Source: Dechloromonas sp. ZY10 (lineage in GTDB: Bacteria; Pseudomonadota; Gammaproteobacteria; Burkholderiales; Rhodocyclaceae). From it: 64,000 nucleotides of DNA. The position numbers were made by a program, and so were the translations under genes. Numbering within the stretch: the first letter of the stretch is position 1; every line of letters starts with the position of its first letter. Below the pieces are notes generated by a model. The model saw nothing but the letters and a program-made list of their open reading frames with translations. It had not been told where the DNA came from and searched no databases. The DNA lies in NCBI RefSeq assembly GCF_041378895.1, contig NZ_CP144212.1:1411501-1475500 (forward strand), in the 5' to 3' direction. Below are positions 816 through 60,609 of the stretch, one piece after another.

Positions 816-829
816 CACGGTCGACCGTG
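816..829. repeat. Dispersed GGTCGACC palindrome, copy 1
   Basis: A perfect 14-bp palindrome, CACGGTCGACCGTG, lies between two divergent genes. It is preceded by a T-rich stretch (801-815) and followed by GGCAAAAAC at 836-844, which matches the right arm of the longer copies at 49251 and 60568. It belongs to the family described in the findings. Confidence 0.85.
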
Positions 830-920
830 GCCAGTGGCAAAAACTCCGGGGCTTGCCTGTATTTCTCCGGTAACACGGCTTGCCTACCCTGTGGTCTGTT
901 CTGGCCAGGGGAGAAAGACG

Positions 921-2069
921 ATGCAGCAAGCAGATCGGGTGGGTGGGATGCGTTTGGCGCTTGTCAGCGAAACCTGTGCGCCGGAAGTCAATGGCGTCGC
1001 CCTGACTCTTGGCCACCTGCTGTATGGCTTGCGTCAGCGCGGGCATTGGGTCGAACTGGTGCGACCCCGGCAACTGCGCGGCGATCGCGGCGGGCATGGC
1101 GAATTCACCGTTGCCGGCTTGCCTCTACCCGGTTACGCGGGTTTGCGCTTTGGCCTGCCGGCCGGCCGGATCTTGCTGCAACGCTGGCGCGAACAGCGTC
1201 CGGACCTGGTCCATGTGGTCACCGAGGGGCCGCTCGGCTGGTCGGCGGTATCGGCCGCCCGGCGCTTGGGAATTCCGGTGACTTCCGGCTATCACACCAA
1301 TTTTGCCCGCTACAGCCTGCATTACCGGCTTGGCTGGTTGCGTCCGGCGGTGGCCAGCTATTTGCGGGGGTTTCATCGACGAACGCAGGCAACACTGGTG
1401 CCGACCGCAGCCCTGGCGGCAGAACTCGCCGGCGAGGGGGTGCCCGGCGTGCAGGTGGTCGGGCGTGGGGTCGATAGCAGCTTGTTCGGCCCGCAGCGCC
1501 GCAACCCCGGTTTGCGCCACTTGTGGGGAGCCGGTCCGGACGATCCGGTCTGCCTGTTTGTCAGTCGTCTGGCGCCGGAAAAGAACCTGGCCGACGTGGT
1601 CCGCGCCTTTGTCGCGCTGCGTCAACAGCAGCCGGCAGCCCGCATGGTCTGGGTCGGTGATGGGCCGGCCCGGGCGGCACTGCAGCGGGCGCATCCCGAG
1701 CACGTGTTTTGTGGTGAGCAGCGGGGTGAAAAACTGGCCGAGCACTATGCCAGTGCCGACCTGTTCCTCTTTCCCAGCCTCAGCGAAACCTGGGGTAACG
1801 TGGTTGGTGAAGCCATGGCCTCCGGTTTGCCGGTGCTTGCCTATCGCAGTGCCGCAGCGGCCGAACTGATTGTGGATGGCACTAACGGGCGGGTGGTCGC
1901 CCCTGGCGACAGCGCCGCTTTTGTTACCGCTGCCGGCCAGCTGGCCGCCGATCCGGTGGGGCGCCGCCGGATCGGGCAGGCTGCGCGGGAGAGTGTCCAG
2001 CAGCGTGGCTGGTCGGAGGTGGTGGCGCGTTTTGAGGGCATTCTGCGCCAGGTGATCGGGGGGGGCTGA
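921..2069 (+). CDS. Glycosyltransferase family 4 (GT-B), MgtA/PimB-like
   Basis: A 382-residue GT-B glycosyltransferase that probably transfers a hexose or mannose from a nucleotide-sugar to a lipid or glycan acceptor at the inner face of the membrane. The N-terminal Rossmann domain opens with SETCAPEVNGV and has a GYHTNF acceptor-side motif. The C-terminal donor domain has RGVD, FVSRLAPEKN, WVGDGPAR and the E-x7-E motif within ETWGNVVGEAMASGLPV. The start at 921 follows AGGGGAGA; an internal ATG at 948 has poorer spacing. Length and motifs fit family 4 enzymes such as GDP-mannose-dependent alpha-mannosyltransferases. The exact sugar and acceptor cannot be read from sequence. It is monocistronic and divergent from the gene at 159. 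Confidence 0.85.
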   Translation: MQQADRVGGMRLALVSETCAPEVNGVALTLGHLLYGLRQRGHWVELVRPRQLRGDRGGHGEFTVAGLPLPGYAGLRFGLPAGRILLQRWREQRPDLVHVVTEGPLGWSAVSAARRLGIPVTSGYHTNFARYSLHYRLGWLRPAVASYLRGFHRRTQATLVPTAALAAELAGEGVPGVQVVGRGVDSSLFGPQRRNPGLRHLWGAGPDDPVCLFVSRLAPEKNLADVVRAFVALRQQQPAARMVWVGDGPARAALQRAHPEHVFCGEQRGEKLAEHYASADLFLFPSLSETWGNVVGEAMASGLPVLAYRSAAAAELIVDGTNGRVVAPGDSAAFVTAAGQLAADPVGRRRIGQAARESVQQRGWSEVVARFEGILRQVIGGG

Positions 2070-2152
2070 AATGCCGCGCCAGAGGAGGGGGCCGGCGCGG
2101 TGACCGGTCCTCGTTGTCATCTGATGGTCATCATTTTTGCGGCCTGAACTGT

Positions 2153-2167
2153 GTATATTGTTTATAC
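2153..2167. promoter_or_regulatory. Promoter/operator-like AT-rich site
   Basis: GTATA-TTGTT-TATAC is an inverted repeat with perfect 5-bp arms, overlapping a TATATT -10-like hexamer (2154-2159), 23 bp before the start of the histone-like gene at 2190. It is sharply AT-rich against a GC-rich background. It could be the promoter with an overlapping repressor site. Confidence 0.4.
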
Positions 2168-2189
2168 GGTTTTATTGAAAGGATGAATC

Positions 2190-2804
2190 ATGGCCGAGCA
2201 GAATTCGACAACTCCCGCCGCTCCCGCCGCTCCCGCCGCTCCTGCCGCTACCGCAGGCCCCGCGACCGAGGCCCCGGTGACAGCGACCGCCAAGCCGGCA
2301 GCACGCAAGGCGGCTCGCCGCCCTGCTGCTCGTATCCAGTCTGCCGCTGCGGTACCGCCTGTTGCGGCGGCGGTCGAGGTGGCGCCGCTTACTGCCGCCG
2401 AGCCGGTGGCGAGCGACACCCTGGCTGCCAACCCGGTGAGCAAGACAGTTGCGGGCAAGGCGGCCAAGTCGGCCAGGAGTGACAAGACCGAAAAGCCGGA
2501 AAAGACCGAGAAACAAGTCAAGGCGCGCAAGCCGGCCAAAGCCGATAAAAGTGAAAAGCCCGAAAAGCCTGAAAAGCCACGTAAGGCGCGGCTGGTCCGC
2601 GACAGTTACACGATTCCGCAAAACGAGCATGAGCGTCTGGACACGATGAAGAAGCGGGCGCTGGCCTACGGGGTCAGCATCAAGAAAAGTGAATTGCTGC
2701 GTGCCGGCCTGCTGGTTCTCGATGCGCTCGACGACGCCCGTTTCAAGGCGGCGATCGAGCGGGTGGAAGTGATCAAGACCGGGCGTCCGCGCAAGGGCGA
2801 CTGA
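2190..2804 (+). CDS. Ala/Lys/Pro-rich histone-like protein with conserved C-terminal domain
   Basis: A 204-residue, strongly basic protein. Residues 1-130 are low-complexity: Ala/Pro-rich repeats such as AAPAAPAAP, then Lys/Glu/Pro repeats (EKPEKTEK, SEKPEKPEKP). This resembles histone H1-like or AlgP-like tails that bind DNA non-specifically. Residues about 132-204 form a compact domain running from RLVRDSYTIP through KKSELLRAGLLVLDAL to KTGRPRK. That domain is common in betaproteobacterial proteins, and its strand-helix-helix pattern is reminiscent of ribbon-helix-helix DNA-binding proteins. ATG at 2190 follows AAAGGA, and a strong terminator follows the gene. The likely role is a nucleoid-associated or DNA-binding protein; the regulatory target is unknown. 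Confidence 0.75.
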   Translation: MAEQNSTTPAAPAAPAAPAATAGPATEAPVTATAKPAARKAARRPAARIQSAAAVPPVAAAVEVAPLTAAEPVASDTLAANPVSKTVAGKAAKSARSDKTEKPEKTEKQVKARKPAKADKSEKPEKPEKPRKARLVRDSYTIPQNEHERLDTMKKRALAYGVSIKKSELLRAGLLVLDALDDARFKAAIERVEVIKTGRPRKGD

Positions 2805-2845
2805 AGCCGGCATCGATGCGGCGCGGCGCCGGCCGCGTGCGCCAG

Positions 2846-2876
2846 GGCCGCCGTTGCAAAGACGGCGGCCTTTTTT
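2846..2876 (+). terminator. Intrinsic terminator
   Basis: GGCCGCCGT and ACGGCGGCC form a perfect 9-bp stem around a 7-base loop, followed by six T residues. It ends transcription of the histone-like gene. Confidence 0.9.
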
Positions 2877-2952
2877 GTGCACTGCGGCAGCGTGTCATCG
2901 GCCTGCAATCATCGCCGGCGATAGTGGGACTATTGCTTCGAGGAACTGCACG

Positions 2953-4908
2953 ATGAACGCCTTTGATCCCGCCGACCAACCGCCCTGTAACCCCTTCGCC
3001 GAGGCGCTGCCGGCCGGTCTCGCCGATCCCTTCCGCCGCCGCCTGTTGTCGGCGGCCTTGCTCGGCAGCGGTGCCGCCGCACTGAGCGCCGCCGGGATTC
3101 CTTTGCCGGCGCTGGCTGGCAGCGCCGGGCGAGCCGCCGGGTCGCTGGCGGCTTTCGGCGGCGTGCCGGTGAGTCAGGACGACCAGGTGCACCTCGGCGC
3201 CGACTATGTCGCGCAGCTCCTCTATAGCTGGGGCGATCCGGTTTCCAACGGGCCGCGCGCGGCGGCCGATGCTGCCGACAATGAAAATGCCCAGTTGCAG
3301 CAGGCCGGGATGCACCACGACGGGATGCATTTCTTTCCCTTCGTCGAGCGCGGCAAACCGTCATCGACGCATGGCCTGCTCTGCGTCAATCACGAATACA
3401 CCGACGAAGGCCTGCTCCACGCCGATGGCAGCGCCAACCCGAGCCCGGCCAAAGTCGCCAAGTCCAAGGCGGCGCACGGCGTGTCGGTGATCGAGATCCG
3501 CCGTGATGCCGAAGGTGCCTGGCAGGTGGTGCGACCCTCGCGCTGGGCGCGGCGCATCACGGCGGATACCCCGTGCCGGGTGGCCGGGCCGGCGCGCGGC
3601 ATTGCCGCGATGCAAACGGCCGCCGACCGCCGTGGCGAGGTGGTACTCGGCACCTTCAACAATTGCGCGATGGGGGTGACGCCGTGGGGCACCTACCTGA
3701 CCTGCGAAGAAAATTTCAATAATTACTTTAAAGGCCCGGCGACGCCGAATGCCGATCAAAAACGCTACGGCTTGAGCGCCAAGGGCGGCGGTATCGGCTG
3801 GCATCGCTTTGACGAGCGTTTCGACAGCACCCTGCATCCCAACGAGCCCAACCGCTTCGGCTGGGTGGTCGAGATCGACCCGCAGCGGCCCGATTTGCCG
3901 CCGGTCAAGCGCACCGCGCTCGGCCGCTGCAAGCACGAGGGGGCGACCGTGACGCTGGCCCGCGACGGGCGGGTGGTGGTGTACATGGGCGACGACGAGC
4001 GTTTCGAGTACGTCTATAAATTCGTTTCGCAGCGCCGCTACATTGCCGGCGAGCGCGACCCCGGCAGCCTGCTCGACGAGGGCACGCTCTACGCCGCGCG
4101 CTTCGACGAGGACGGCAGCGGCCGCTGGCTGCCGCTGCGCCACGGCGAAAAATACCCGCGCGGCGGGTTGACCGTGGATCATGGCTTTGCCAATCAGGGC
4201 GAGGTCGCGATCCGCTGCCGCCAGGCCGCCGACCTCGCCGGGGCAACGCCGATGGACCGTCCCGAATGGATCGCGGTGCATCCGCACAGCGGCGAGGTCT
4301 ACGTCACGCTGACCAACAACGACCAGCGCGGCAGCCCCGAGCGGCCCGGGATCAACGCTGCCAACCCGCGTCCCCGCAACGTCTTCGGCCAGATCGTGCG
4401 CTGGCGCGAGCAGGGCGGCGACGCGGCAGCGGAAAGCTTCAGCTGGGACATTTTCGCCCTCGCTGGCGACCCGCAGCATCCCGAGCCGGCGCAGCAGGGC
4501 ACGGTGCGCGGCGACGCCTACGGCAGCCCGGACGGCCTGTGGTTTGATCCCAGCGGCCGGCTGTGGATTCAGACCGACGTGTCGACCAGCGCCATGCATC
4601 GGGGCGACTACCAGCGCCTGGGCAATAACCAGATGCTGGTGGCCGACGTTGCCAGCGGCGAAACCCGGCGCTTTCTCACTGGCCCGCGCGGCTGCGAATT
4701 GACCGGGATCAGCGCGACGCCGGATGGGCGGACGCTGTTCGTCAATATCCAGCATCCCGGCGAGCCAGCCAACGAACAATCCGACCCGCAGCGGCCAACT
4801 GCGGTCTCGGCCTGGCCGGCCAATCAGTTTCCCGAGGCCGTCGGCGGTCGGCCGCGCTCCGCGACGCTGGCAATCCGCCGGCGCGACGGGCGGCCGGTGC
4901 TGGATTAA
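2953..4908 (+). CDS. PhoX-family (DUF839) Tat-exported phosphatase
   Basis: A 651-residue member of the PhoX/DUF839 family. Known members are calcium- and iron-dependent alkaline phosphatases exported folded to the periplasm. The N-terminus carries a twin-arginine signal, FRRRLLSAALLG near residues 27-38, followed by a hydrophobic Ala/Leu stretch. Family blocks include NHEYTDEG, GTYLTCEENFNNY, GRCKHEGATV, YMGDDERFEYVYKF and GSPDGLWFDPSGRLWIQTD. The start at 2953 is chosen because GAGGA lies nine bases upstream and the Tat signal begins shortly after; the frame is open further upstream but overlaps the preceding terminator. It is monocistronic. No Pho box was identified. The substrate (phosphomonoester or other) is inferred from the family. 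Confidence 0.88.
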   Translation: MNAFDPADQPPCNPFAEALPAGLADPFRRRLLSAALLGSGAAALSAAGIPLPALAGSAGRAAGSLAAFGGVPVSQDDQVHLGADYVAQLLYSWGDPVSNGPRAAADAADNENAQLQQAGMHHDGMHFFPFVERGKPSSTHGLLCVNHEYTDEGLLHADGSANPSPAKVAKSKAAHGVSVIEIRRDAEGAWQVVRPSRWARRITADTPCRVAGPARGIAAMQTAADRRGEVVLGTFNNCAMGVTPWGTYLTCEENFNNYFKGPATPNADQKRYGLSAKGGGIGWHRFDERFDSTLHPNEPNRFGWVVEIDPQRPDLPPVKRTALGRCKHEGATVTLARDGRVVVYMGDDERFEYVYKFVSQRRYIAGERDPGSLLDEGTLYAARFDEDGSGRWLPLRHGEKYPRGGLTVDHGFANQGEVAIRCRQAADLAGATPMDRPEWIAVHPHSGEVYVTLTNNDQRGSPERPGINAANPRPRNVFGQIVRWREQGGDAAAESFSWDIFALAGDPQHPEPAQQGTVRGDAYGSPDGLWFDPSGRLWIQTDVSTSAMHRGDYQRLGNNQMLVADVASGETRRFLTGPRGCELTGISATPDGRTLFVNIQHPGEPANEQSDPQRPTAVSAWPANQFPEAVGGRPRSATLAIRRRDGRPVLD

Positions 4909-6158: not shown

Positions 6159-6197
6159 GCTGTGCCGGCAGTGGCCGGGCGGCGTTTTTTGGTCTTT

Positions 6198-6215
6198 TTC
6201 ACGGTCGACCGTGAA
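6198..6215. repeat. Dispersed GGTCGACC palindrome, copy 2
   Basis: A perfect 18-bp palindrome, TTCACGGTCGACCGTGAA, fills much of the 72-bp gap between the TatT gene and dctP inside the TRAP operon. A TTTTTT run lies upstream at 6185-6190. Confidence 0.88.
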
Positions 6216-6230
6216 TTTGGGGGATTTTCG

Positions 6231-7244: not shown

Positions 7245-7247
7245 GCG

Positions 7248-9146
7248 ATGGCTGCCCGCGAACTGGAAGGGCGCCCGCTGCACATGCGCTGGCCTCGTCG
7301 TGTCGCTGAGGCGCTTGGCCACGGCAGCGAGCGTCTCGCCGAATTCTTCGCCAGCGGCGCGCTGGCGCTGATGCTGCTGTTGCCGCTCGCCGAGATCGCG
7401 GTCCGCCCGCTGCTCGGCGAAGGCATCCAGAACCAGCCGCTGCTGGTGCAGCACTTTGGCCTGATCCTGGCGATGGCCGGTGCCGTGCTTGCCGAGCGTG
7501 GCGGCCACCTGACCACGCTTGGCCCCGGCCTCGCCGCCTTGCCGCAGCCCGGGCTCAGGACCTTCGCCGGCTGGGCCGGGGCAGGCGGCACGGCGCTGCT
7601 CTGCGGCGTGCTGGCGCAGGCCAGCTGGACCTTCGTCGCCAGCGAAATGGCCGGCGGCCGGCTGCTCGCCTACGCCTTGCCCGGCTGGCTGATTCAGCTG
7701 GCGATGCCGCTCGGCTTTGCCGCGCTCGGCATCCGCTATGGCAGCAAACTCGGCGGCCTGGCCGGCGGGGGCGCGGGTGGCAGTCTCACGGTGCGCATTG
7801 CTGGCGCGCTGCTGCCGCTGGTCGGCTGGTTGCTGGCGGCGCAATTCGACGGGACGAGCCTGCCGCTTTTACCGCTGTTATTGCTGTTGACCGTGGTGCT
7901 GCTCTGCGGCGCGCCGATTTTTGCCGTGCTCGGCGGGCTGGCGCTGGCGCTGTTCTGGGCCGAGGGCCAGCCGCTGGCGGCGATCCCGCTCAGTCATTAC
8001 CAGATCACGGTCAATCCTTCGCTGCCGGCGCTGCCGCTATTCACGCTGGCCGGGCTGATCTTTGCCCGCACTGGTGCCGCCGCCCGGCTCGGCGCCTTGT
8101 TCACCGCGCTCTCTGGGGGCGGGGCACGCGGCACGGCGATTGCGGCGGCGGTGCTTTGTTCGGTATTCACCGCCTTCACCGGCGGCAGCGGCGTCACCAT
8201 CCTGGCGCTCGGTGGGCTCTTACTGCCCTTGCTGACCCAGGCCGGGCTGCCGCAGCGGCGCGGTATTGGCCTGGTGACCAGCGCCAGCGCCCTCGGCGTG
8301 CTGCTGGCGCCGTCGGTGCCGCTGATCATGTACGCGATCATCGCCCGCGTGCCAATCAACACCATGTTCCTCGCCGGGCTGCTGCCGGCGGCGCTGATGG
8401 TCGCCTGCCTGCTCGTGGTCGGCGGGTTTCTGCGCCGCGACGGCCTGGCGCCGGCAGCAGCGAGTGCCGCGCCGACCGACTGGGCGGCGGTGCGCCGTGC
8501 GGCCTGGTGCGCGCGTTGGGAAATCGCCGCGCCGCTGGTTGCCATCGGCTCGCTCGCCGGCGGTCTGGCGACGCCGACCGAGAGTGCGGCGCTGACCGCC
8601 GCCTACGCGCTGCTGACCCAGGCCTGGGCGCAACGCGAGGTCGATGCCGCCTTGCTGCGCCGCTGTCTGGCCGATTGCGCGCAGGTGATCGGCGGCATCA
8701 TGCTGATCCTCGGTATGGCGCTGGGCCTGACCAATTACCTGGTCGATGCCGGGATTCCCGACGCCGCGATTGAAACCGCGCAGGCCTGGCTGCCGAACAA
8801 GTGGGCTTTCCTGCTCGCGCTCAACGTCTTCCTGCTGCTGGCCGGCGCCTTGATGGAGATATTTGCGGCGATTGTCGTGCTGGTGCCGCTGCTGCTGCCG
8901 GTAGCCACCAGCTACGGAATCGACCCGGTGCATTTCGGGATCATCTTCCTGGCCAATATCGAAATGGGCTTTCTCTGCCCGCCGGCCGGGATGAATCTCT
9001 ATTTCGCCTCGGCGATGTTCGGGCGGCCGCTACGCGAGGTCGCGGTTTCGGTGCTGCCCGCCGTCGCCGCAATTTTTATCGGGGCGCTGGCGATTTCGCT
9101 GCTGCCTTTTCTCGCTACCTGGCTGCCGGGCTTGCTGCTGCCCTGA
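7248..9146 (+). CDS. Fused TRAP transporter membrane subunit DctQM
   Basis: A 632-residue integral membrane protein. Residues about 25-190 form the four-helix DctQ-like small subunit (LALMLLLPLAEIAVRPLL near its start). Residues about 200-632 form the DctM/SiaM-like large subunit with many membrane spans and family blocks FTAFTGGSGVTILALGGLLLP, SVPLIMYAIIARVPINTMF, ATPTESAALTAAYALL and GFLCPPAGMNLYFA. It imports the DctP-bound solute, energised by an ion gradient. It begins three bases after the dctP stop codon. An in-frame ATG at 7284 could be the true start because no strong ribosome site precedes 7248. Confidence 0.88.
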   Translation: MAARELEGRPLHMRWPRRVAEALGHGSERLAEFFASGALALMLLLPLAEIAVRPLLGEGIQNQPLLVQHFGLILAMAGAVLAERGGHLTTLGPGLAALPQPGLRTFAGWAGAGGTALLCGVLAQASWTFVASEMAGGRLLAYALPGWLIQLAMPLGFAALGIRYGSKLGGLAGGGAGGSLTVRIAGALLPLVGWLLAAQFDGTSLPLLPLLLLLTVVLLCGAPIFAVLGGLALALFWAEGQPLAAIPLSHYQITVNPSLPALPLFTLAGLIFARTGAAARLGALFTALSGGGARGTAIAAAVLCSVFTAFTGGSGVTILALGGLLLPLLTQAGLPQRRGIGLVTSASALGVLLAPSVPLIMYAIIARVPINTMFLAGLLPAALMVACLLVVGGFLRRDGLAPAAASAAPTDWAAVRRAAWCARWEIAAPLVAIGSLAGGLATPTESAALTAAYALLTQAWAQREVDAALLRRCLADCAQVIGGIMLILGMALGLTNYLVDAGIPDAAIETAQAWLPNKWAFLLALNVFLLLAGALMEIFAAIVVLVPLLLPVATSYGIDPVHFGIIFLANIEMGFLCPPAGMNLYFASAMFGRPLREVAVSVLPAVAAIFIGALAISLLPFLATWLPGLLLP

Positions 9147-9164
9147 GCCGGGCAAAAAACGCAA

Positions 9165-9182
9165 TTTTCACGGTCGACCGTG
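9165..9182. repeat. Dispersed GGTCGACC palindrome, copy 3
   Basis: TTCACGGTCGACCGTGAA, identical to the 18-bp copy at 6198, lies in the 58-bp convergent gap between dctQM and the BON-domain gene. CAAAAAACGC (9151-9160) precedes it. Confidence 0.88.
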
Positions 9183-9204
9183 AATTCGGCCGAAAAGCCG
9201 CGCT

Positions 9205-17961: not shown

Positions 17962-17962
17962 G

Positions 17963-45568: not shown

Positions 45569-47895
45569 GCGCTACGTCGCAGGAAGCCGCTGCGGGCAAC
45601 GAACAGGTCGTCGAATTCGCCATCGGCGGCATGACTTGTGCCGCCTGTTCGACGCGCCTGGAAAAGGTGCTCAACCGCCAGCCGGGGATGCAGGCCAACG
45701 TCAATCTCGCCGCCGAACGGGCGCGCGTGCGCCTGGCGGCCGGGGTCGAGGCGGCGGCGGTGGTCGCCGCCGTGGCCAAGGCCGGCTTCAGCGCGACGCC
45801 GGTCGACGCCGGCACCCGCGAGCGCGAAAAGGCCGCCAAACAGGCGGCTTATGCGCAGGAATTGCGCCAGTTCTGGATCGCCGCCGCGCTGACCCTGCCG
45901 CTGGTGCTGCAAATGCTGTGGATGTTCCCGGCCGACGGGCATGGCCACGCCGAACTGCCGCGCTGGCTGCAGCTGGCGCTGGCGACACCGGTGCAGTTCT
46001 GGATCGGCTGGCGTTTTTACGACGGGGCCTGGAAGGCGCTGCGCGGTGGCGGCGCCAACATGGACGTGCTGGTCGCGCTGGGGACGACCATGGCCTGGCT
46101 GCTGTCGGCGGTGGTGACCCTGTTCGGGCTCGACGAGCATGTCTATTTCGAAGGCGGGGCGGCGGTGATCACCCTGGTCCTGCTCGGCAAGCTGCTCGAA
46201 GCGCGGGCCAAGGCGCGCACCTCGGAAGCCATTGAGGCGCTGATCCGGCTGCAGCCGAAGACTGCCCGCGTCCGCCGCGAGCAGGACGGCGCGGTGGTCT
46301 GGCGGGAACTGCCGGTCGAGGCGCTGATGCCTGGCGATGTGTTTCTGGTCCGTCCCGGCGAAGCGGTGCCGGTCGATGGTGAGGTGGTCGACGGGGCGTC
46401 GAGCGTCAATGAAGCGATGCTCACCGGCGAGAGCATGCCGGTCGGCAAGGCGCCCGGCGACCGGGTTTTTGCCGCGACCCATAACGGCGAAGGGGCGTTG
46501 ACCTGTCGCGCTACCGGCGTCGGCGAGCAGACGCTGCTGGCCGGAATCATCCGTCTGGTGGGTGAAGCGCAGGGCTCGAAAGCGCCGGTGCAGCGGCTGG
46601 CCGACCAGATTTCCGGGATTTTCGTGCCGGTGGTGTGCTCGCTGGCGCTGGCCACCTTCGTCGGCTGGTGGCTGGCCGGCGCCGGTTTTGCGACGGCGCT
46701 GGTCAATGCCGTCGCGGTGCTGGTGATTGCCTGTCCCTGCGCGCTCGGGCTGGCAACGCCGACCGCGATCATGGTCGGTACCGGCCAGGGGGCGCGCGCC
46801 GGGGTGCTGGTACGCAACGCCGAGGCGCTGGAGCGGGCGGAAAAAATCAAGGTACTGGCACTCGACAAGACCGGCACGCTGACCTGCGGCGAGCCGCAGT
46901 TGACCGACCTGCTGCCGCGCGCCGAATCCTCCGATGCTGTGCTGGCGCTGGCGGCGGCACTGGAGCAGTCGTCCGAACACCCGCTGGCGCGGGCAATTTT
47001 GCACCATTTCACGGTCGACCGTAAAAATCCGCAATTTTTACCAGTGCGCGACTTCCGGGCACTGCCCGGCCACGGCGTCGAGGCGCGGGTGACGACGCCG
47101 AGCGGCGAACGCCAGCTGCGCCTCGGTTCGCCGGTCTGGCTGGGGCTGGCCGACGATCCTGAGGTCAAGCGCCTGCAGCAGATGGGCAAGACGGTGGTGG
47201 TGCTGGCCGAGTGGCCGGGGGCGCAATCCGTCGCCGAATCTGCCACCGAGTCTGCCGCGCTGCAGGCCGCTGCCAATCAAGTGGAAGCCAATCCAGCGGC
47301 AGCCGGGCCGACGGTGCTTGGCGTGCTGGCGATTGCCGATGCCTTGCGTCCGACCTCGCGGGCGGCGGTGGCGCGGTTGCGGGCACAGGGGATCCGGGTG
47401 GTGATGCTGACCGGCGACCAGGCGCTGACGGCGGCGGCGATTGCCGCCGAGGCCGGGGTCGATGAATTCCGTGCCGGCATCCTGCCCGGTGACAAAGCCT
47501 CTGCCATCGGCGAACTGCGCGCTGCCGCCCAGGCGATGGACGCCAAGGCGCTGGTGGCGATGGTTGGCGACGGGATCAACGATGCGCCGGCGCTGGCCGC
47601 TGCCGATGTCGGCTTCGCGATGGGCGCCGGCTCCGATGCGGCGGTCGAGGCCGCCGACCTGACGCTGATCCGCAGCGACCTGCACGGTCTGGCCGACGCC
47701 ATCGACCTGTCGCGGGCGACGCTGGGCAAGATCCGCCAGAACCTGTTCTTCGCCTTCATTTACAACGTGCTCGGCATTCCCGCCGCCGCCTTCGGCCTGC
47801 TCAACCCGGTGATCGCCGGCGCGGCGATGGCGGCAAGTTCGGTGTCGGTGGTCAGCAATTCGCTGCTGCTCAAGCGCTGGCGCGCCGGGCGTTAA
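45565..47895 (+). CDS. copA: Copper-translocating P1B-type ATPase
   Basis: A 776-residue Cu(+) exporter. One N-terminal metal-binding domain has GGMTCAAC (Cys25, Cys28). The actuator has [11 protein letters not shown]6 has the ion motif [11 protein letters not shown], the phosphorylation site is DKTGTLT, the N-domain has [10 protein letters not shown], and the hinge is [12 protein letters not shown]. Two oddities sit in the N-domain. Residues about 479-492 ([14 protein letters not shown]) are encoded by a copy of the dispersed palindrome. An Ala-rich insertion (about residues 552-582, [20 protein letters not shown] onwards) is unusual for the family. Both lie in loops and keep the frame. It is followed by a copper chaperone. 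Confidence 0.93.
47001..47040. repeat. In-frame GGTCGACC element in copA
   Basis: TTTCACGGTCGACCGTAAA lies at about 47008-47026, with flanking TTTT (46997-47000) and ATTTTTA (47034-47040). The gene reads it in frame as FTVDRK (Phe482 onwards). Confidence 0.7.
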
Positions 47896-47908
47896 AAATT
47901 CACTTTTT

Positions 47909-47924
47909 CAGGAGTCGACCGTGG
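47909..47924 (+). repeat. GGTCGACC half-element providing the copZ start region
   Basis: AGGAGTCGACCGTGGG: the right half of the palindrome (GTCGACCGTGG) supplies both the spacer and the GTG start codon of copZ, with AGGAG directly before it. CACTTTTTC lies just upstream. Confidence 0.55.
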
Positions 47925-48139
47925 GAAGTACGCAAACAAGTACCGAAATCAAGATCGGCGGCATGAGCTGCCAGGGCTGCGTCAAGAATATCGGCGGCGT
48001 GCTTGCCGCCTTGCCCGGGGTGGCCAGCGCCGAAGTATCGCTGGAACAGAACGCCGCGCAGGTCAGCTTCGACCCGCAGCAGATCAGCCGCGCTGACTTG
48101 CTGGCGGCGATTGAAGACGCCGGTTTTGATGCCGAATAA
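47921..48139 (+). CDS. copZ: Copper chaperone / heavy-metal-associated domain protein
   Basis: A 72-residue HMA-fold protein with the metal motif GGMSCQGC (about residues 13-20) and the usual ferredoxin-like pattern ([20 protein letters not shown]). It delivers Cu(+) to CopA, which is encoded 25 bp upstream. The start is GTG at 47921 with AGGAG six bases away. Its GMSCQGC rather than GMTCxxC is a minor variant. Confidence 0.88.
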
Positions 48140-49224: not shown

Positions 49225-49250
49225 GCGGTTTTGGCGGTTTTTTCCGTTTC

Positions 49251-49266
49251 CCACGGTCGACCGTGG
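49251..49266. repeat. Dispersed GGTCGACC palindrome, convergent-gap copy
   Basis: A perfect 16-bp palindrome, CCACGGTCGACCGTGG. TTTTTTCCG at 49238-49246 and GGCAAAAAA at 49271-49279 sit symmetrically about its centre and pair at seven of nine positions. Confidence 0.88.
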
Positions 49267-49321
49267 CAATGGCAAAAAATAGCCGACAAGCAGCCAAAGC
49301 CAGCCAAAAACCAGCCGAGAC

Positions 49322-51559: not shown

Positions 51560-51833
51560 CTCCGACTCGCTACCGGGCCGCGTGGGGGCGACAGCCGGGA
51601 CAAGACCGGGTGCAGCAAGGCAAAATCAGGGCAGGAAAAATGAAAAAAGCCACGGTCAACGTGGCTTGGCGGCAAAAATGCCGGTGGAAGTTTGGGGCGG
51701 GGGCTGCGGCCGGTGACGGTGGCCGGCAAGCGTAACTGGCGGTAGTAGGCGTAGCCTCTTTAAAGCGGCCCCAATCGGGCTGCCCTAAATGGATGACCCA
51801 AAACGACCGGCGGCGATGGCCGCCGGGTCGGGG
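51560..51833. other. Intergenic region with hairpins, 274 bp
   Basis: No gene is supported. It contains AAGCCACG-GTCAA-CGTGGCTT (51647-51667), preceded by AAAAAA and followed by GGCAAAAATGCCGG, a degenerate relative of the GGTCGACC element that could also act as a terminator. It also holds the bacterioferritin terminator. A short GGCTACGCCTACTACC-type stretch (minus strand, near 51737-51752) resembles codons near the end of the unknown gene at 159; this may be chance. Confidence 0.5.
51800..51826 (-). terminator. Terminator of the bacterioferritin operon
   Basis: CCGGCGGC-GATG-GCCGCCGG is a perfect 8-bp stem, and on the minus strand it is followed by TCGTTTT. Confidence 0.75.
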
Positions 51834-53252: not shown

Positions 53253-55196
53253 TCAGGACCACAGCGCGCGCAGCGCCAGATTGAACAGACCGCCAACGAA
53301 AAAGGCGAAGGGAACAATGGTCGCGACCATGCCGAGCGCGGTTTTCAGGCCTTGTTCCTTGACCATCATCATCAGGCTGGCAAAGCAGGGGATGAACAGG
53401 GTGATGGTGATCATCCCGACCACCGCCTGAATCGGGTCGAGGCTGCCAGCCATCGCGAACAGGCCGGTGGCGCCGAAGTCACGGCGCAAAAAGCCCATCA
53501 CGAAGGCAGCTGAGGCTGCCGGCGGCAGGCCGAGCCAGCCGCTGACCAGCGGTTCGCCGAGGCGGATGATCGCCGGCAGGATGCCGAATTTGTCGAGCGA
53601 GTACATGATCAGGGTGCCGAGCAGGAACAGCGGGATCACTTCGATCAGATACCACTTGAGGCGGCCGCCGGTCTTCTTCAGCACGTTGCCGAGGATGGGC
53701 AGGCGCATCGGCGGCAGTTCGGTGACCAGCGGAATACGGCGGCCGGGAATCAGCCGGGCGGCCAGGAAGCCGGCCAGCAGCAGTACGCCGACCATGGCCA
53801 GGGCCCACACCAGCAGCGCCTGGAAGGAGACGCCGCCAAGCATGCCGAGAACCACGCCGAGCTGCGCTGAGCAGGGGATCGCCAGCGCCAGTAGGAAGGT
53901 GGTGATCAGGCGTTCGCGAGGCGAATGCAGGATGCGCGTGGTCAGTGTCGCCATCGTCACGCAGCCGAGGCCGAGCACCATCGGCAGCACGGCGCGGCCG
54001 TTGAGGCCGATGGCAGCGAAGAGCCGGTTGGCGATCACGGTTAACCGGGGCAGATAGCCGGAATCCTCGAGCACGCCAAAGGCGATGAAGAAGGTGGTGA
54101 CGATGGGCAGAATCAGCGCCAGCGCGTAGGTCATGCCCATGGTCCATAGGCCGTACTGGCCGACCAGCAATTCGGCCAGCCAGGGCTGGTCGACCGTGGT
54201 TTCGACGAACTGGGTGAAGGCCGGGTTGAGGAGGCCTTCGAAGAGGTCTTCCTCAAGCAGGCCGACGAGGGTGGTGGCGCCGAAGACGCCGACGAATTCA
54301 TAAACCGCAAACAAGACGGCAAGCAGGCAGGGAATGCCCCACAGCGGATGCACCACGTATTGGCCGATGCGTTGCGAGAGCAGCGGGCTGCTTTGGGCGC
54401 TGCGCCGGATTACGCTGGCGGCCAGCGCATCGGCGGCCTGGGTCCGCTCACGGGCAAGTTCGGCGGGCAACTTGCCGTGCCAGCGGGCTTGCGCATTTTT
54501 ACGGATGTCGGCCAGTTGACCGTAGTGCTCGCCGGCGCGCTCATGCAGCCAGCTTTCGACCTGGCCGTCGTTGCCGAGATAGAGGATGGCTAGGCCGCGT
54601 GCGTTTAGCTGCGGGTGCGGCGCCAGTTCGGCGATGGCCGCCGCCATTTCGCCAATTGCGGTTTCGCTGGCGGCATCGTAGCGCAGCAGCGGATCGGGGC
54701 GCCGGGCTTGCGGCAGGCTCTGGGTCAGCGCCTCGATGCCTTCGCCGCCGGTGGCGACGGTGGCCAGCACCGGAATCCCGAGTTCTTCAGCGAGCGCCGC
54801 CAGATCGACGGTGACGCCACGGGCGGCCGCCTCGTCGTGCATGTTCAGGGTCAGCACCATCGGCACGCCGAGTTCGGCGAGGAGCGCGGTCAGCGTCAGC
54901 GTCCGGCGCAGATTCTTGGCATCGCCGACCTGCAGCCAGCAGCGGGCGTCTTCGCCGAGCAGCGCGCGCATCGTCGCCCGTTCGTCGTCACTGCGCGAGG
55001 GCAGGGCGAGCACGCCGGGGGTGTCGAGCAGGCTGGCGCTGCCATCGAAGCGGGCGCTGGCGCGGGTGACTTCGACGGTGGTGCCGGGGTAGTTCGAGAC
55101 ATTGACGTAGGCGCCGGTCAGGCGATGGAAAAGGACCGATTTGCCGACGTTGGGATGGCCGACCAGGAGGATGGCGCTGGCAGAGGTTTGAGTCAT
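53253..55196 (-). CDS. feoB: Ferrous iron transporter FeoB
   Basis: A 647-residue Fe(II) permease. The N-terminal G domain has GHPNVGKSVLFHRLTG (G1), YPGTTVEVTRA (G2), LDTPGV (G3) and NMHDEA in place of the canonical NxxD (G4), followed by a helical GDI-like region. The membrane part has two Gate-type repeats with the cysteine motifs LPMVLGLGCVTMATL and LLALAIPCSAQLGVVLG. It is shorter than E. coli FeoB (no FeoC-binding tail). The start MTQTSASAILLVGHP at 55196 lies just after the TlpA-like gene, suggesting one transcript with it. Confidence 0.92.
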   Translation of the reverse strand: MTQTSASAILLVGHPNVGKSVLFHRLTGAYVNVSNYPGTTVEVTRASARFDGSASLLDTPGVLALPSRSDDERATMRALLGEDARCWLQVGDAKNLRRTLTLTALLAELGVPMVLTLNMHDEAAARGVTVDLAALAEELGIPVLATVATGGEGIEALTQSLPQARRPDPLLRYDAASETAIGEMAAAIAELAPHPQLNARGLAILYLGNDGQVESWLHERAGEHYGQLADIRKNAQARWHGKLPAELARERTQAADALAASVIRRSAQSSPLLSQRIGQYVVHPLWGIPCLLAVLFAVYEFVGVFGATTLVGLLEEDLFEGLLNPAFTQFVETTVDQPWLAELLVGQYGLWTMGMTYALALILPIVTTFFIAFGVLEDSGYLPRLTVIANRLFAAIGLNGRAVLPMVLGLGCVTMATLTTRILHSPRERLITTFLLALAIPCSAQLGVVLGMLGGVSFQALLVWALAMVGVLLLAGFLAARLIPGRRIPLVTELPPMRLPILGNVLKKTGGRLKWYLIEVIPLFLLGTLIMYSLDKFGILPAIIRLGEPLVSGWLGLPPAASAAFVMGFLRRDFGATGLFAMAGSLDPIQAVVGMITITLFIPCFASLMMMVKEQGLKTALGMVATIVPFAFFVGGLFNLALRALWS

Positions 55197-55200
55197 GGGT

Positions 55201-55782
55201 TCAGGCTGTTTGGCAGCGGGCGATGGCCTGGTGCAGCCACTGCTCGCCGATTTCGCCGCTGTGGCGGGCACAGGGACGGCGATCCGGGGTGAGGACGAGA
55301 GTATAGGGCAGGGCGCCGCTGCGGTTACCGAAACGGGCGAGCAAGCCGCGTGGCTCGCTCGGTCCGTGCAGCAGCAGCAGTGGGGAGCGTAGCGCGGCGC
55401 GGGCCGGTGCGGGGGCACGTTCGGTTTCCGCCGGACGTTGCAGCGCGACGGTGACAATCCGGGCGCGGCCGGCATGTGCCTCGGCGCTCCGCAGCAGGGT
55501 CGGCAGTTCGCGGACACAGGGCGGGCAGTCGCTGCGCCAGAAATTGACTACCGAGACTTGTGGCGGCAAGTTGGCCAGGCGAACAAAACCTTCGTTGGCC
55601 GCCAGTTCGAAATCCAGGGTAGCGTCGGAAAATGCCGAATTTTCGGCGTGGACCGTGGAGATTCCGCCCAGCAGCACCGCTAAGCATAAGCAGCCAGCGC
55701 GGCCGGGGCGAGTAAGGGCAAAGCCCGTCCGGGCCGGAGCCGGGACGGGCGGAAGTGGCAATCGGGCGGGCTTACAACGCAA
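55201..55782 (-). CDS. TlpA-like thioredoxin-fold exported protein
   Basis: A thioredoxin-fold protein of up to 193 residues. A hydrophobic export signal (CLCLAVLLGGISTVHA) is followed by a TlpA/ResA-type core with VSVVNFWRSDCPPCVRELP (active-site CPPC) and GNRSGALPYTLVL, containing the conserved cis-Pro (LPY). It should act as a periplasmic disulfide reductase. The start is unclear: TTG at 55782 overlaps the stop codon of the TonB receptor and GGAG lies ten bases upstream, so translational coupling is possible. Another TTG at 55761 is in frame. It sits between the receptor and feoB. Confidence 0.75.
   Translation of the reverse strand: MRCKPARLPLPPVPAPARTGFALTRPGRAGCLCLAVLLGGISTVHAENSAFSDATLDFELAANEGFVRLANLPPQVSVVNFWRSDCPPCVRELPTLLRSAEAHAGRARIVTVALQRPAETERAPAPARAALRSPLLLLHGPSEPRGLLARFGNRSGALPYTLVLTPDRRPCARHSGEIGEQWLHQAIARCQTA
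55723..55752 (-). terminator. GC-rich hairpin after the TonB receptor gene
   Basis: GCCCGTCC and GGACGGGC form a stem with an inner GGCCGGAGCC segment. On the minus strand it is followed by only a weak TTTGCCCTT tract. It lies inside the predicted 5' end of the TlpA-like gene, so it may attenuate rather than fully terminate transcription. Confidence 0.45.
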
Positions 55783-57904
55783 ACTTGACTCCGCCGTAGA
55801 TGAAGCGACCCCGGTTCGGACCCCAGATATGGGTCACATCGTAGCTGCCGGCGGCGTCGATCCAGAGCATGCTTTCCTTGTCTGACTGCTTGAAGTCAAA
55901 CAAGTTATCGACACCCAGGTAGGCAGACCACTGCTTGTTCAGGCGGTATTCACCGCGCGCATCGACGACCCAGTAAGCCGGGCTTTTACGGCGTTTCGGG
56001 CTGCCGTCGAAGTTGAAGCGCTGGTTGTTGTCGTAGTCGTAGAACTTGGCCAGGTCCATCGGCCCGGTCCAGGTCGCCCGCAGCATTCCGGTCCACGGGC
56101 CGCTGTCGTAGTCAAGACGGAGATAGGCGCGGGTCTCGGGACGGGCGAAGGCGAGCGTGCCGGCTTCCGAAAAATCGTACTTGAAGTGTTCGCCGGCAAT
56201 CGTCGCTTCCAGCTGCGGTGTCAGCTTGTAGGTGACGGTCAGGTCGCCGCCGATCACGGTCACCGGCTGTCGGGCCGAGGTGAAGCGGGTAATCGGGTCG
56301 CCGGTCAGCGGATCGGTGGCGCCCGAGTTGAGCAGTGCCATATTCTTGATCCGGTTGTAGTTCAGCGAGCCGACCCAGGCCAGGCGGTCGCCGGCGTAGG
56401 ACAGTGCGTAGGAAAGGTTGTCGGCGGTTTCCGGCTTCTTGATTTCGCGGACGATGCGAGTGGTATCGAGAATCCCGTGGTCCTGTTCGAAGAACGAGGT
56501 CGGGGCGCGGTAGCCGTGGCCGACGGCAAAGCGGCTGTTGAGTTCGTGGCTGTGGTTCCACAGCACGTTCAGGCGCGGGCTGGTGATGCCGCCGAAAACA
56601 TTGTGGTTGTCGTAACGCAGCGACCCGTTCACCTCGACATCGCCGTCGAAGAAGGCACGGTAGGCCTGAACGAAGGCGCCGGGGGTGCGGTACTTGTAAT
56701 TGTCGATGCCATCGTTGATCCGGCCACTGGCGTCGCGGCCCCGGCTATTGAGGTCTTCGTAACGGTAGCTGGTGCCGACGGTGAGCAAGGTGGCGCCGAG
56801 CGGCTGCTGGGTGCTCGCCTCGAAGTAGTACTGATCCTGCGCCGCCTGGTAGAGCGCCTTTTCGTAGAACGAATCCTGCTTGTGGTTGGCGTAGCCGAAG
56901 GCCAGGCGCAGGCTGCCGGCGCCGAGGGCACGGGTGGCGCTGGAAACAAACTGCTTGCGCTCGGTGAAAATGATCTCCGACATGCCGGCCCGGCCATCGG
57001 TGTAGAAACGTCCGGCCTGGCCGTTGCGCAGCAGGTCGCTGCCGCTGCCATCTGGCGTCACCCAGCCACGCGGGTCGGGTGAGCCGTTGGCACCCCGGCT
57101 CCAGTCAAAACCATTGCCGCCGCCGTCGGCCTTGACGCCGCTGTAGTCGCGGCCCATCGCTCCGCCCATGCGCTTTTCGTCGACCACGTCGAAGCGGCCC
57201 TTGAGCTTGAAGCCGCCGAGATCGTCGGCGAAGAAACCGATGCCGCCGAGCTTGCGCTCGTAGCCGGTATATTCGGAAACGCCGTTCCTGTCGGCGTCGA
57301 CCGTGTTATGCCGGTTGTGCTGGAAGTTGGCGGTTACGGCGCCGCGTTCGAAAGCCTTGGCGGCGAACAGGTCGGTGCTGTTCTGGCCGTAGCTGCCGAA
57401 CTGTTGGTTGGCGATGAATTCATCCCTGGTCGGGCGGCGGGTCACGATATTGACCGAGCCAGCCAGCGCTTCGGGGGCGATCAGACTGGTCCCCGCACCC
57501 CGTGAAATGTCGATCCGTTCGATGCCGCCGAGATTGACGCTGTCGAGGCCGTACGCGGTCGAGACCGACGAAAAGATCGGGATGCCGTCGATCAGCAGCG
57601 TGGTGTAGCGGCCGGGCAGGTTGTTGAGGACCACGTTGCGCACGTTGCAGATCGAGCATTCGGCCTGGACAGCGATTCCCGGGCGCTTGTCGAGCGCCTC
57701 GGTGAGCATGGTCGCCCCGGTTTTTTCCAGTTCGCGGGCACCGATCGATTCGGTGGCAACGATCTCATCGCGCAATTGCGGCTTGGCGCCCACCGCGCGG
57801 CCGCCGGAAACGGTGACCTCGCCGAGTTGCTTGTCGGCCAGTGCCGGCCAGGCAAAGCATAGTGCCAGTGCGGCGGCAATCGGTTTGAGATGGGTGTGAC
57901 GCAT
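55772..57904 (-). CDS. TonB-dependent outer-membrane receptor with CxxC plug motif
   Basis: A 710-residue TonB-dependent receptor. The signal peptide (1-23) ends PALA. The plug domain (about 30-155) contains AECSICNVRNVVLNNLPG and the usual TTLLIDGIPI and GAGTSLIAPEALAGSVNIVT. The 22-strand barrel ends with YLGVDNLFDFKQSD and the terminal aromatic region GGVKFAL. The TonB-box-like stretch is LGEVTVSGG. The cysteine pair in the plug (CSIC) is unusual in classical siderophore receptors. GGGAGGA precedes 57904. It lies between exbD and a TlpA-like gene in an iron block, so an iron or haem-related or other metal ligand is likely; the exact ligand is unknown. Confidence 0.88.
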   Translation of the reverse strand: MRHTHLKPIAAALALCFAWPALADKQLGEVTVSGGRAVGAKPQLRDEIVATESIGARELEKTGATMLTEALDKRPGIAVQAECSICNVRNVVLNNLPGRYTTLLIDGIPIFSSVSTAYGLDSVNLGGIERIDISRGAGTSLIAPEALAGSVNIVTRRPTRDEFIANQQFGSYGQNSTDLFAAKAFERGAVTANFQHNRHNTVDADRNGVSEYTGYERKLGGIGFFADDLGGFKLKGRFDVVDEKRMGGAMGRDYSGVKADGGGNGFDWSRGANGSPDPRGWVTPDGSGSDLLRNGQAGRFYTDGRAGMSEIIFTERKQFVSSATRALGAGSLRLAFGYANHKQDSFYEKALYQAAQDQYYFEASTQQPLGATLLTVGTSYRYEDLNSRGRDASGRINDGIDNYKYRTPGAFVQAYRAFFDGDVEVNGSLRYDNHNVFGGITSPRLNVLWNHSHELNSRFAVGHGYRAPTSFFEQDHGILDTTRIVREIKKPETADNLSYALSYAGDRLAWVGSLNYNRIKNMALLNSGATDPLTGDPITRFTSARQPVTVIGGDLTVTYKLTPQLEATIAGEHFKYDFSEAGTLAFARPETRAYLRLDYDSGPWTGMLRATWTGPMDLAKFYDYDNNQRFNFDGSPKRRKSPAYWVVDARGEYRLNKQWSAYLGVDNLFDFKQSDKESMLWIDAAGSYDVTHIWGPNRGRFIYGGVKFAL

Positions 57905-58009: not shown

Positions 58010-58429
58010 TTAACCCTGTCCGGGCTGGGTGACGAAGCCGATCTTGCTGAGACCGGCCCGACGGGCCGCGCTCATGGTCTCAGCAACCGTTTCGTAACGG
58101 GTGACGCGGTCGGCCTTGAGGTGCATTTCGACATTGGCATCCTGCTGCACCGCATCGCGGAACTTGGCTTCGAGGCTGTTACGGTCGACCGGCTCGGAAC
58201 CGACAAAAACCTGGTTGTCGGCGTTGATCGCAACCTGCAGGGTCATCGGCTTTTCCGGGGTCGGGGTGCTGGCGGCGCGCGGCAGGTCAACCTTGACCGA
58301 ATGGGTCATCAGCGGCGCGGTGATGATGAAGATGATCAGCAGCACCAGCATCACGTCGACCAGTGGCGTCATGTTGATTTCGGCGGTCGGCATCTGGCTG
58401 CCGCCGGAGTTGAACGAACCCATCGCCAT
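58010..58429 (-). CDS. exbD: Biopolymer transport protein ExbD
   Basis: A 139-residue inner-membrane protein. A short cytoplasmic N-terminus with EINMTPLVDVMLVLLIIFII contains the essential membrane Asp (PLVD), followed by a periplasmic domain (LQVAINADNQVFVGSEPV, VHLKAD-type). It forms the proton-driven ExbB/ExbD/TonB motor. Its ATG is adjacent to the exbB stop codon. Confidence 0.92.
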   Translation of the reverse strand: MAMGSFNSGGSQMPTAEINMTPLVDVMLVLLIIFIITAPLMTHSVKVDLPRAASTPTPEKPMTLQVAINADNQVFVGSEPVDRNSLEAKFRDAVQQDANVEMHLKADRVTRYETVAETMSAARRAGLSKIGFVTQPGQG

Positions 58430-59930: not shown

Positions 59931-60107
59931 CTATTTGGTCAGGATCAGCTTGTTTTCGCGGGTGACGCGCAACTGGTAACGCTGTCCGGCATGCTCAATT
60001 TCGATCAGGTTCCGGCCGGCCAGGAGTTGCCGGCTGTCGATGCAGGTCTTGCTGTCGCTGGCTTCGGTGCGGACCGGTTGCGAGGGTGTGCTAGGGGTTT
60101 GCAGCAT
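59931..60107 (-). CDS. hemP: Hemin uptake protein HemP
   Basis: A 58-residue protein ending QLLAGRNLIEIEHAGQRYQL then RVTRENKLILTK, the HemP/HmuP signature. HemP is a small, often Fur-controlled regulator or accessory factor for haem receptor expression. It leads the tonB-exbB-exbD-receptor block, with two Fur-type boxes immediately upstream, so the whole set is probably iron-regulated. The ATG at 60107 has a weak ribosome site. Confidence 0.88.
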   Translation of the reverse strand: MLQTPSTPSQPVRTEASDSKTCIDSRQLLAGRNLIEIEHAGQRYQLRVTRENKLILTK

Positions 60108-60124
60108 GATGGATTGCAAATAAT

Positions 60125-60139
60125 TGAGAATTGTTCTCA
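60125..60139 (-). promoter_or_regulatory. Fur box 1 upstream of hemP
   Basis: TGAGAATTGTTCTCA is a 7-1-7-like inverted repeat close to the Fur consensus (TGATAAT-N-ATTATCA), 18 bp before the hemP ATG. Confidence 0.8.
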
Positions 60140-60150
60140 TATTATCGTAT

Positions 60151-60165
60151 TGAGAATCGTTGTCA
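60151..60165 (-). promoter_or_regulatory. Fur box 2 upstream of hemP
   Basis: TGAGAATCGTTGTCA, flanked by TAT and ATA to give a longer symmetric site, lies 26 bp from box 1. Confidence 0.75.
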
Positions 60166-60170
60166 ATATT

Positions 60171-60391
60171 GTTTTGGCAATTTGATTGAACTTTTTCCGC
60201 CGTCAAGGAAAAACTGTGGGAGGCTGGCCGAAAAAATCGGAGGATTGCTGGTGCTCGGTCCAGTCGCTGGCAGCGAGCATGGGATTTTCAGTGCGCAGTG
60301 AACGGTCAATTCGTGCCGGGTCGAATCGCACGGTTGGCAGCTTGCATGTCGTTGCAAAGCACCGGCGAAGGGCAGCAGCGGGAGCGAGCGG
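60171..60391. other. Gene-poor stretch beyond hemP
   Basis: No gene is supported between the Fur region and the small candidate gene. Reading frames open here have compositions unlike the rest of the window (Ser/Arg/Cys-rich) and no ribosome sites. Confidence 0.5.
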
Positions 60392-60559
60392 TCATGCTGC
60401 CGGGACGGGGGATGGCCGACGTGCGGAAGCCTCGGCGAAGCGAGCAGGGGGGTACAGGTTGACGTGGCTATCGCGGTAATCCGGCGCCAGTTTTTCGGCA
60501 TGTGCCGGATGGTCGGGGCAGTCGTTGAGGCCGGGACGCGGCAGGGGATGGTCCGGCAA
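60392..60559 (-). CDS. Small hypothetical protein, possibly truncated, 55 aa
   Basis: A minus-strand frame from TTG at 60559 to TGA at 60392 has coding-like composition, with high GC at third positions and an amphipathic sequence with LNDCPDHPAHAEKLAPDYRD then SHVNLYPPARF. No ribosome site is visible. The frame closes upstream at a TAA inside the 42-bp palindromic element at 60568-60609, so this may be the 3' remnant of a gene cut by that element. I do not recognise the family. Confidence 0.3.
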   Translation of the reverse strand: MPDHPLPRPGLNDCPDHPAHAEKLAPDYRDSHVNLYPPARFAEASARRPSPVPAA

Positions 60560-60567
60560 GAATTGTT

Positions 60568-60609
60568 TTTTTGCCGTTGATTATGGTCGACCGTAACTAA
60601 CGGCAAAAA
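60568..60609. repeat. Full-length GGTCGACC element with 11-bp outer arms
   Basis: The most complete copy: TTTTTGCCGTT (60568-60578), six bases, core GGTCGACC (60585-60592), six bases, AACGGCAAAAA (60599-60609). The outer arms are perfectly complementary and exactly symmetric about the core. A transcript could fold into a hairpin from either strand. Confidence 0.9.

Follow-up and report, generated by a model that had tools for sequence, protein, structure and literature searches.

A stretch of 64,000 nucleotides from the one-contig genome of Dechloromonas sp. ZY10 (3,568,927 bases; positions 1,411,501-1,475,500, referred to here as the window) carries a short palindromic element, dispersed in about a dozen copies according to the original prediction. 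The locus raises the question of what this element is: a mobile repeat of the repetitive extragenic palindrome (REP), bacterial interspersed mosaic element (BIME) or miniature inverted-repeat transposable element (MITE) kind, a chromosome-wide protein-binding site comparable to parS or nucleoid-occlusion sites, as had been suggested, or something else. From its sequence and distribution it is very probably a DNA uptake signal sequence (USS), read by a DNA receptor of the type IV pilus.

The repeat is real and more frequent than first listed. The 14-mer CACGGTCGACCGTG has 164 exact copies in the 3.57-Mb genome and none in the reversed control. Exact copies in the window are at 816, 6200, 9169, and 49252, with a single-mismatch copy at 47010; with up to three mismatches there are 28 (5.13 expected), and GGTCGACC occurs 11 times (1.37 expected), neither count being reached in any of 100 shuffles. 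All twelve places in the original list are full or partial matches, the cores of the copies noted at 43681, 60568, and 47911 being at 43697, 60582, and 47914-47923, and the two identical extended copies were found as TTCACGGTCGACCGTGAA at 6198 and 9167. The list was nevertheless incomplete. With a position weight matrix trained on sequence from elsewhere in the genome, 39 oriented sites of the window reach a score of at least 9, against none in the reversed window; 37, at 29 distinct places, score at least 12. Across the whole genome CACGGTCRAC-N15-WWWW has 872 copies (429 forward, 443 reverse; reversed control 0). An Rfam scan of the window gave no family at gathering scores. For word counts, 20 stretches of 20 kb were combined with the window into a sample of 464 kb, with 5,000 bases masked. 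Its most over-represented 9-mer is ACGGTCGAC (152 copies against 17.4 expected under an order-4 model, both strands) and its most over-represented 10-mer CACGGTCGAC (108 against 5.3), with CACGGTCAAC third among 10-mers (54 against 2.2). Since these core words head the lists, the unit must reach beyond the palindrome.

That unit is a directional motif of about 35 bp, CACGGTCRAC-n4-AAAA-n6-W5, in which three conserved blocks are separated by free letters. Non-palindromic copies read, in order, a weak T-rich lead, the core with its nearly invariant CGGTC block, an A tract spanning +14 to +17 (counted from the first core base), and an A/T tract spanning +24 to +28. The steps from core centre to first tract and from there to the second are about 10 bp each, or about one helical turn. 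Conserved arms had been proposed, and they were found: in 86 non-palindromic copies of ACGGTCGAC, A/T content is 97% at the adjacent columns +26 and +27 counted from the first base of CACGGTCGAC, and the corresponding figure for 54 copies of CACGGTCAAC is 93–94%. The matrix (38 columns, 27.9 bits; trained on the 400-kb sample without the window) recovers 216 sites from its training sample at a score of 12, and 3 from the reversed sequence. The palindrome is two of these motifs, inverted and sharing one core, and is not itself the unit; among 199 distinct places in the 464 kb, 54 are palindromic and 145 single.

In the genomes counted, the motif is abundant in one genus, and not in all its members. 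The nearest related loci are from Azonexus and Dechloromonas records, the closest (L023, 96% protein identity) from an Azonexus metagenome-assembled genome. Across 76 genomes of this genus the CACGGTCRAC form ranges from 0 to 908 copies (controls 0–3). A generic, dialect-tolerant pattern (YRCGGTCRRC-N5-AAA-N7-WWWW; control no higher than 1 in both directions) has at least 20 copies in 46 of these genomes, 14 and 17 in two, and at most 8 in 28. Of 249 genomes of the family, 241 belong to other genera, and these have no more than four copies of the generic pattern and five of the CACGGTCRAC form. Of 369 genomes of the class, the 368 others have no more than six of the generic pattern; in G445, which reaches six, all are near-identical repeats of a single sequence. 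Clusters of three to four copies on single contigs were seen in three motif-scarce genomes of other genera (G097:C15:3512-11518, G138:C150:38769-41480, and G090:C38:40227-51338), as if DNA had been imported from a motif-bearing relative or the contig mis-binned.

The core itself comes in dialects that differ between species: CACGGTCGAC, YACGGTCAACCGGAAAA, TGCGGTCGAC, and TACGGTCGGC. The ZY10 genome (G000) uses CACGGTCGAC in the 400-kb sample, and in samples of 100 kb each G310 and G325 use YACGGTCAACCGGAAAA, G020 uses TGCGGTCGAC, and G338 mixes cores of the TGC, CAC, and TAC types, most of which have CAAC. Cores of the TACGGTCGGC type are found at loci L026, L027, and L031, and in the 21-kb locus L050, from the cultured isolate Azonexus hydrophilus ZS02, the TGC dialect predominates. 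Among motif-poor genomes (100 kb each), G304, G308, and G329 are at or below the reversed control, and G035 has 14 against 7. No alternative repeat word of comparable excess was found in these four samples (best z no higher than 9, where the 9-mer core reaches 14–17 in motif-rich G310, G338, and G325), so there is seemingly no other tag of such strength in them. A single-protein tree of 60 rows, with 20 of 57 inner branches open and no shuffled-label control, has at least 10 changes of motif presence and 17 of dialect label, and suggests that some dialects cluster.

Along the ZY10 chromosome oriented sites have a density of about 0.5 per kb (253 in 464 kb). All but one of the 21 sampled stretches contain them, and the places are somewhat more regularly spaced than at random (coefficient of variation 0.84 over 179 gaps). 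Gene calls were made with a home-made codon model (377 genes, 86.0% coding, masked bases excluded). The expectation that copies lie mostly at gene junctions holds for the palindromes, where 88 of 108 oriented paired sites are intergenic and 20 coding, but not for single sites, of which 109 of 145 are coding and 36 intergenic. Convergent gaps of 20–1500 bp are favored (palindromic places 20 vs. 8.2 expected, single 16 vs. 7.0), and divergent gaps of the same sizes fall short (7 vs. 11.1 and 3 vs. 9.4). The one stretch without any site, where about 11 would be expected from the mean, is L011 (G000:C1:1560001-1580000), which carries a Druantia type II-like island at 42-14680 with DruE2 (2017.7 bits), DruF2, DruG2, DruK, and a cytosine methylase. 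L007 has only two sites, and these lie in its first half, where GC is normal; in the low-GC second half are genes of the glycosyltransferase-like, nucleotidyltransferase, and DegT types. No other stretch of the sample has a GC content as low as these two (56.1% for L007 and 56.3% for L011; 58.6–65.5% for the others), nor as few sites.

Such a dispersal, along with helically phased tracts that might suit a bending protein, could also be expected if a cytoplasmic DNA-binding protein (nucleoid-associated, or engaged in chromosome organisation or repair) used the motif chromosome-wide, in the manner of Chi, KOPS, matS, parS, or nucleoid-occlusion sites. This is unlikely, for several reasons. When replichores are assigned from GC skew within the sample, leaving out L011 (0/0) and L012 (9/5) beside the skew switch, strands are balanced at 65+/66- in the right half and 55+/53- in the left. 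There is no leading/lagging polarity across the sampled replichores, hence no resemblance to Chi or KOPS, and sites run along both replichores, hence not in local clusters like parS or matS. The existence of several dialects, the near absence from 28 of the 76 genus genomes, and the lack of any site in the sampled Druantia stretch are also hard to fit to a chromosomal function, and the residues changed in genes at the motif, described below, point to drive rather than local need. The density of about 0.5 oriented sites per kb likewise speaks against the earlier comparison to parS and nucleoid-occlusion sites, which is accordingly a poor one; the broader idea of a protein-binding site survives, as a site for a binder at the cell surface.

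A second possibility is that the palindromic subset is a favored transcription terminator or another kind of RNA hairpin that acts at the RNA level only. The excess between convergent genes would suit this, and four palindromic copies fold into stems of 5–7 pairs. Their z-scores are modest, however (-1.0 to -2.4); a scan of 4.2 kb found five terminator-like sites against 4.1 in shuffles, with one palindromic copy among them; and the 145 single places, their one-sided A/T tracts, and their location in genes would be left unexplained. As a full account this is very improbable.

How coding copies arise can be followed in relatives. Alignments to relatives were obtained for 27 of the 119 coding sites queried, 341 in all, with 322 from nine window sites. 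Net length at the motif is unchanged in 300 of them (419 of 500 in flanking controls), and none shows a net loss of at least 14 bases; because of this, coding copies are taken to arise by point mutation and not insertion. At 22187 the window has CACGGTCGAC, in frame with the CACGCTGGCC that relatives most commonly show, and 45 of 48 covered loci are gap-free. At 24521, where 31 of 40 covered loci are gap-free, CACGGTCAAC is shared with L023, L036, L042, and L077, and the same codons hold TACGGTCGGC in L026 and L027, TACGGTCGAC in L062, and TGCGGTCAAC or TGCGGTCGAC in L045, L050, L054, L058, L060, L061, L064, L068, and L074. Depending on the dialect, the encoded residue is His, Tyr, or Cys. At other loci this place carries no motif, including L033, L038, and L044, which otherwise show TGC-type motifs. 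For the intergenic copy at 17964 only 1 of 44 alignments is gap-free, and 6200, 9169, and the coding site 7895 have no covering alignments; the conclusion on origin applies to coding copies. A comparable test, with proteins, was applied to the USS by Redfield and co-workers (PMC1626085). A REP/BIME or MITE-like element copied by a transposase, which the strong consensus and the mostly intergenic palindromes had brought to mind, has next to no likelihood given coding copies that were not inserted, single copies mostly inside genes, a unit with free letters between three blocks, and the lack of any match in G000 to the REP-associated Y1 transposase (PF01797), whose matches in four other genomes do not follow the motif (two each in motif-rich G011 and G020, none in motif-rich G310, one in motif-poor G304).

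A DNA uptake signal would account for these patterns together. A receptor would recognise the directional tag on extracellular DNA and thereby favor uptake of DNA of the cell's own kind; tagged fragments would be bound and imported better, and their recombination into the chromosome would spread the tag by biased gene conversion. If tagged fragments enter more often, mutations that create or strengthen a tag would then spread. Tags inside genes at the cost of changed residues, and dialect turnover at fixed places, would follow from such uptake-driven spread, as would the absence of tags from the apparently acquired island in L011. Palindromic copies would be two inverted tags on one core, and those at gene ends may double as terminators.

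Type IV pilus uptake machines are reported to prefer tagged DNA in Haemophilus influenzae and Neisseria (PMC12616744, PMC7811141), and sequence-specific uptake is described as known from Neisseriaceae and Pasteurellaceae only (PMC12616744). The likeness to the Pasteurellaceae USS is extensive. Like that signal, which has Hin (AAGTGCGGT) and Apl (ACAAGCGGT) types and for which two A/T segments with helical spacing are described (PMC1626085), the motif has a core of 9–10 bp with two A/T segments to one side of it, spaced by roughly a helical turn. Also shared are a balance between the two orientations, numerous copies inside genes, inverted pairs in intergenic positions, gain by point mutation, and subclade dialects. 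The TGCGGTCAAC dialect of the genus and the extended Hin USS, printed as AAAGTGCGGTCAATTTT, have nine consecutive bases, TGCGGTCAA, in common (PMC12616744). The inner USS core GCGG is present in the TGC and CGC dialects of the genus, but not in the CAC dialect of the window. Other differences are the class of host, here the GC-rich Azonexus/Dechloromonas; a first A/T tract starting 5–6 bp farther from the core when aligned on the shared GGTC; a distance between tracts of about 10 bp instead of 12; fully overlapping palindromes; and perfect cores that do not outnumber singly mismatched ones. Preferred uptake, moreover, is a prediction here. The motif is therefore outside the Pasteurellaceae USS as defined, since host, inner core, and perfect-to-mismatch ratio differ, while behaving as a USS in nearly all tests that can be made on sequence.

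Other known systems are less similar. The DNA uptake sequence (DUS) of Neisseriaceae (GCCGTCTGAA and dialects; receptor ComP) is likewise a genome-wide tag with clade dialects, and a pilin with a ComP_DUS domain is encoded in G000, but there is no visible likeness of the cores, CGGTCRAC with two flanking tracts here having no inner CTG, and the DUS is described without flanking A/T segments (PMC1626085, PMC12616744). REP/BIME elements and those of REP-associated tyrosine transposases (RAYT) share palindromic, dispersed, often intergenic copies, but not a directional three-block unit frequent in genes. HIP1 of cyanobacteria is a short palindrome highly iterated genome-wide, and is not known to have direction or phased flanking tracts; here, single places exceed palindromic ones. 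As the original prediction had stated, an element with such a consensus seems not to have been described: none was found in the literature searched, nor any description of the motif in Rhodocyclales, Dechloromonas, or Azonexus, and it is unmentioned in the available portions of PMC2907700, PMC5217627, PMC4212676, PMC9045156, PMC3364145, PMC12649708, and PMC6908604.

Homologues of competence genes are present in G000, with matches to ComEC (202.5 bits, in an open frame of 869 aa), DprA (256.6 bits), and ComEA (68.6 bits). A minor-pilin cluster encodes the ComP_DUS-domain pilin (PF16732, 40.9 bits), a GspH/FimT-domain pilin, PilW and PilY1 domains, and a PilV-like protein scoring under the family cut-off. 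Compared with solved structures, the ComP_DUS-type pilin matched 17 sequences of pilins or pilin-like proteins, none of them named as ComP. DNA binding by FimT is reported for several gammaproteobacteria (PMC8897410), and in Pasteurellaceae the USS receptor is predicted to be PpdA/ComN (PMC12616744); because of these precedents a minor pilin is the likely candidate for the reader of the motif.

Several observations weigh against an uptake signal. ComP_DUS pilins are found in 70 of the 76 genus genomes, motif-poor ones included, and ComEC in 71, so neither gene tracks the motif; with DprA in 75, a link to competence-gene presence was rejected, as none of the three separates motif-rich from motif-poor genomes. 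Conversely, no ComEA match over the cut-off was found in motif-rich G338, and no DprA match in the motif-rich draft genome G019. The ComEC match is split between two frames in motif-poor G035 (C1:1959178-1959913) and lies in a short open frame in motif-poor G018 (C8:1085724-1086371), possibly a recent loss of competence, but G304 and G308 are equally motif-poor with long open ComEC, so such loss is no general explanation. The perfect core is outnumbered by singly mismatched forms for both ACGGTCGAC (152:252; reversed control 10:302) and ACGGTCAAC (68:282; reversed control 8:203), unlike in H. influenzae. Relative to the Pasteurellaceae USS the tracts are out of phase by about half a turn. Counting any gap at all, motif segments are affected more often than flanks (115 of 341 vs. 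74 of 602), although the gaps are mostly balanced and cancel. Finally, no report of natural transformation in Azonexus/Dechloromonas was found in the literature searched. With these points included, an uptake signal is still considered very probable, and Azonexus/Dechloromonas is best read as adding a third lineage to those whose DNA uptake is sequence-specific. A stronger form of this, in which the signal is also akin to the Haemophilus USS, the widespread TGCGGTCAAC dialect sharing nine bases and the layout with the extended Hin form because related minor pilins read both, is possible but doubtful; such a kinship could come about by descent, by receptor transfer, or through a shared physical constraint.

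Matrix-scored sites in the window. Spans and core positions are window coordinates; two scores refer to the two orientations of a pair.
Span	Type	Strand or cores	Score	Location and remarks
799..846	palindromic pair	816+ / 829-	34.7, 30.0	exact 14-mer
4146..4180	single	-	18.7	coding
6183..6230	palindromic pair	6200+ / 6213-	40.1, 40.6	intergenic, upstream of TRAP substrate-binding protein gene 6270-7244
7865..7899	single	-	21.5	inside TRAP permease gene 7248-9146
9152..9199	palindromic pair	9169+ / 9182-	36.4, 37.1	between convergent genes; terminator-like stem and T tail on - strand
15680..15727	palindromic pair	15697+ / 15710-	22.5, 13.8	inside acetate/propionate kinase gene 14846-16027
17960..17994	single	+	25.9	between genes
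20143..20177	single	-	20.5	coding; net length unchanged in 54/54 alignments
22183..22217	single	+	23.1	coding; net length unchanged in 52/52 alignments
24517..24551	single	+	28.2	coding; many relatives with own dialect there
24676..24710	single	-	25.7	coding
27053..27087	single	-	13.9	coding
27547..27581	single	+	32.4	coding; both A/T tracts strong
27573..27607	single	-	21.0	facing that of 27547..27581
30812..30846	single	-	22.5	coding
36352..36386	single	-	29.1	coding
40244..40278	single	-	14.8	coding
43680..43727	palindromic pair	43697+ / 43710-	22.3, 31.5	inside gene 42927-44147
46993..47040	palindromic pair	47010+ / 47023-	39.8, 41.0	inside gene 45565-47895
47893..47927	single	-	24.6	just beyond end of gene 45565-47895
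49235..49282	palindromic pair	49252+ / 49265-	31.4, 34.4	between convergent genes
51647..51681	single	+	22.1	between genes
54032..54066	single, weak	+	16.9	coding; CACGGTTAAC
54168..54202	single	-	14.1	coding
54494..54528	single	-	16.8	coding
55627..55661	single	-	31.5	coding; CACGGTCCAC
57275..57309	single	-	16.2	coding
58176..58210	single	+	18.6	coding
60565..60612	palindromic pair	60582+ / 60595-	27.1, 29.6	intergenic

Other repeated words were encountered in the same samples. A further over-represented word in the 464 kb of G000 is CAGGGTTTC/GAAACCCTG (47 copies vs. 7.0 expected, both strands), and 12-mers including AGCAGATTCAAC, AACCGGGACAAC, and CAACCGGTACAG, with 11–14 copies each, apparently belong to another repeat. 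Unrelated repeats in relatives include ATGCCGGACA/GGACATGCC words (16–18 copies) in G020, GAGAAGTCCGAG words (9–10 copies) in G310, and a dense short repeat with AAGGATCAA in L023 (20 copies over the two strands of 21 kb).

If the motif is an uptake signal, one environmental genus would hold tag-rich, tag-poor, and differently tagged species, and close relatives could be compared directly. The identity of the receptor, the reason why uptake is choosy, and whether the tag drives itself through genomes would become questions that can be addressed in this group. Imported DNA would also be recognisable by the tag, which could be put to use in transforming Azonexus and Dechloromonas.

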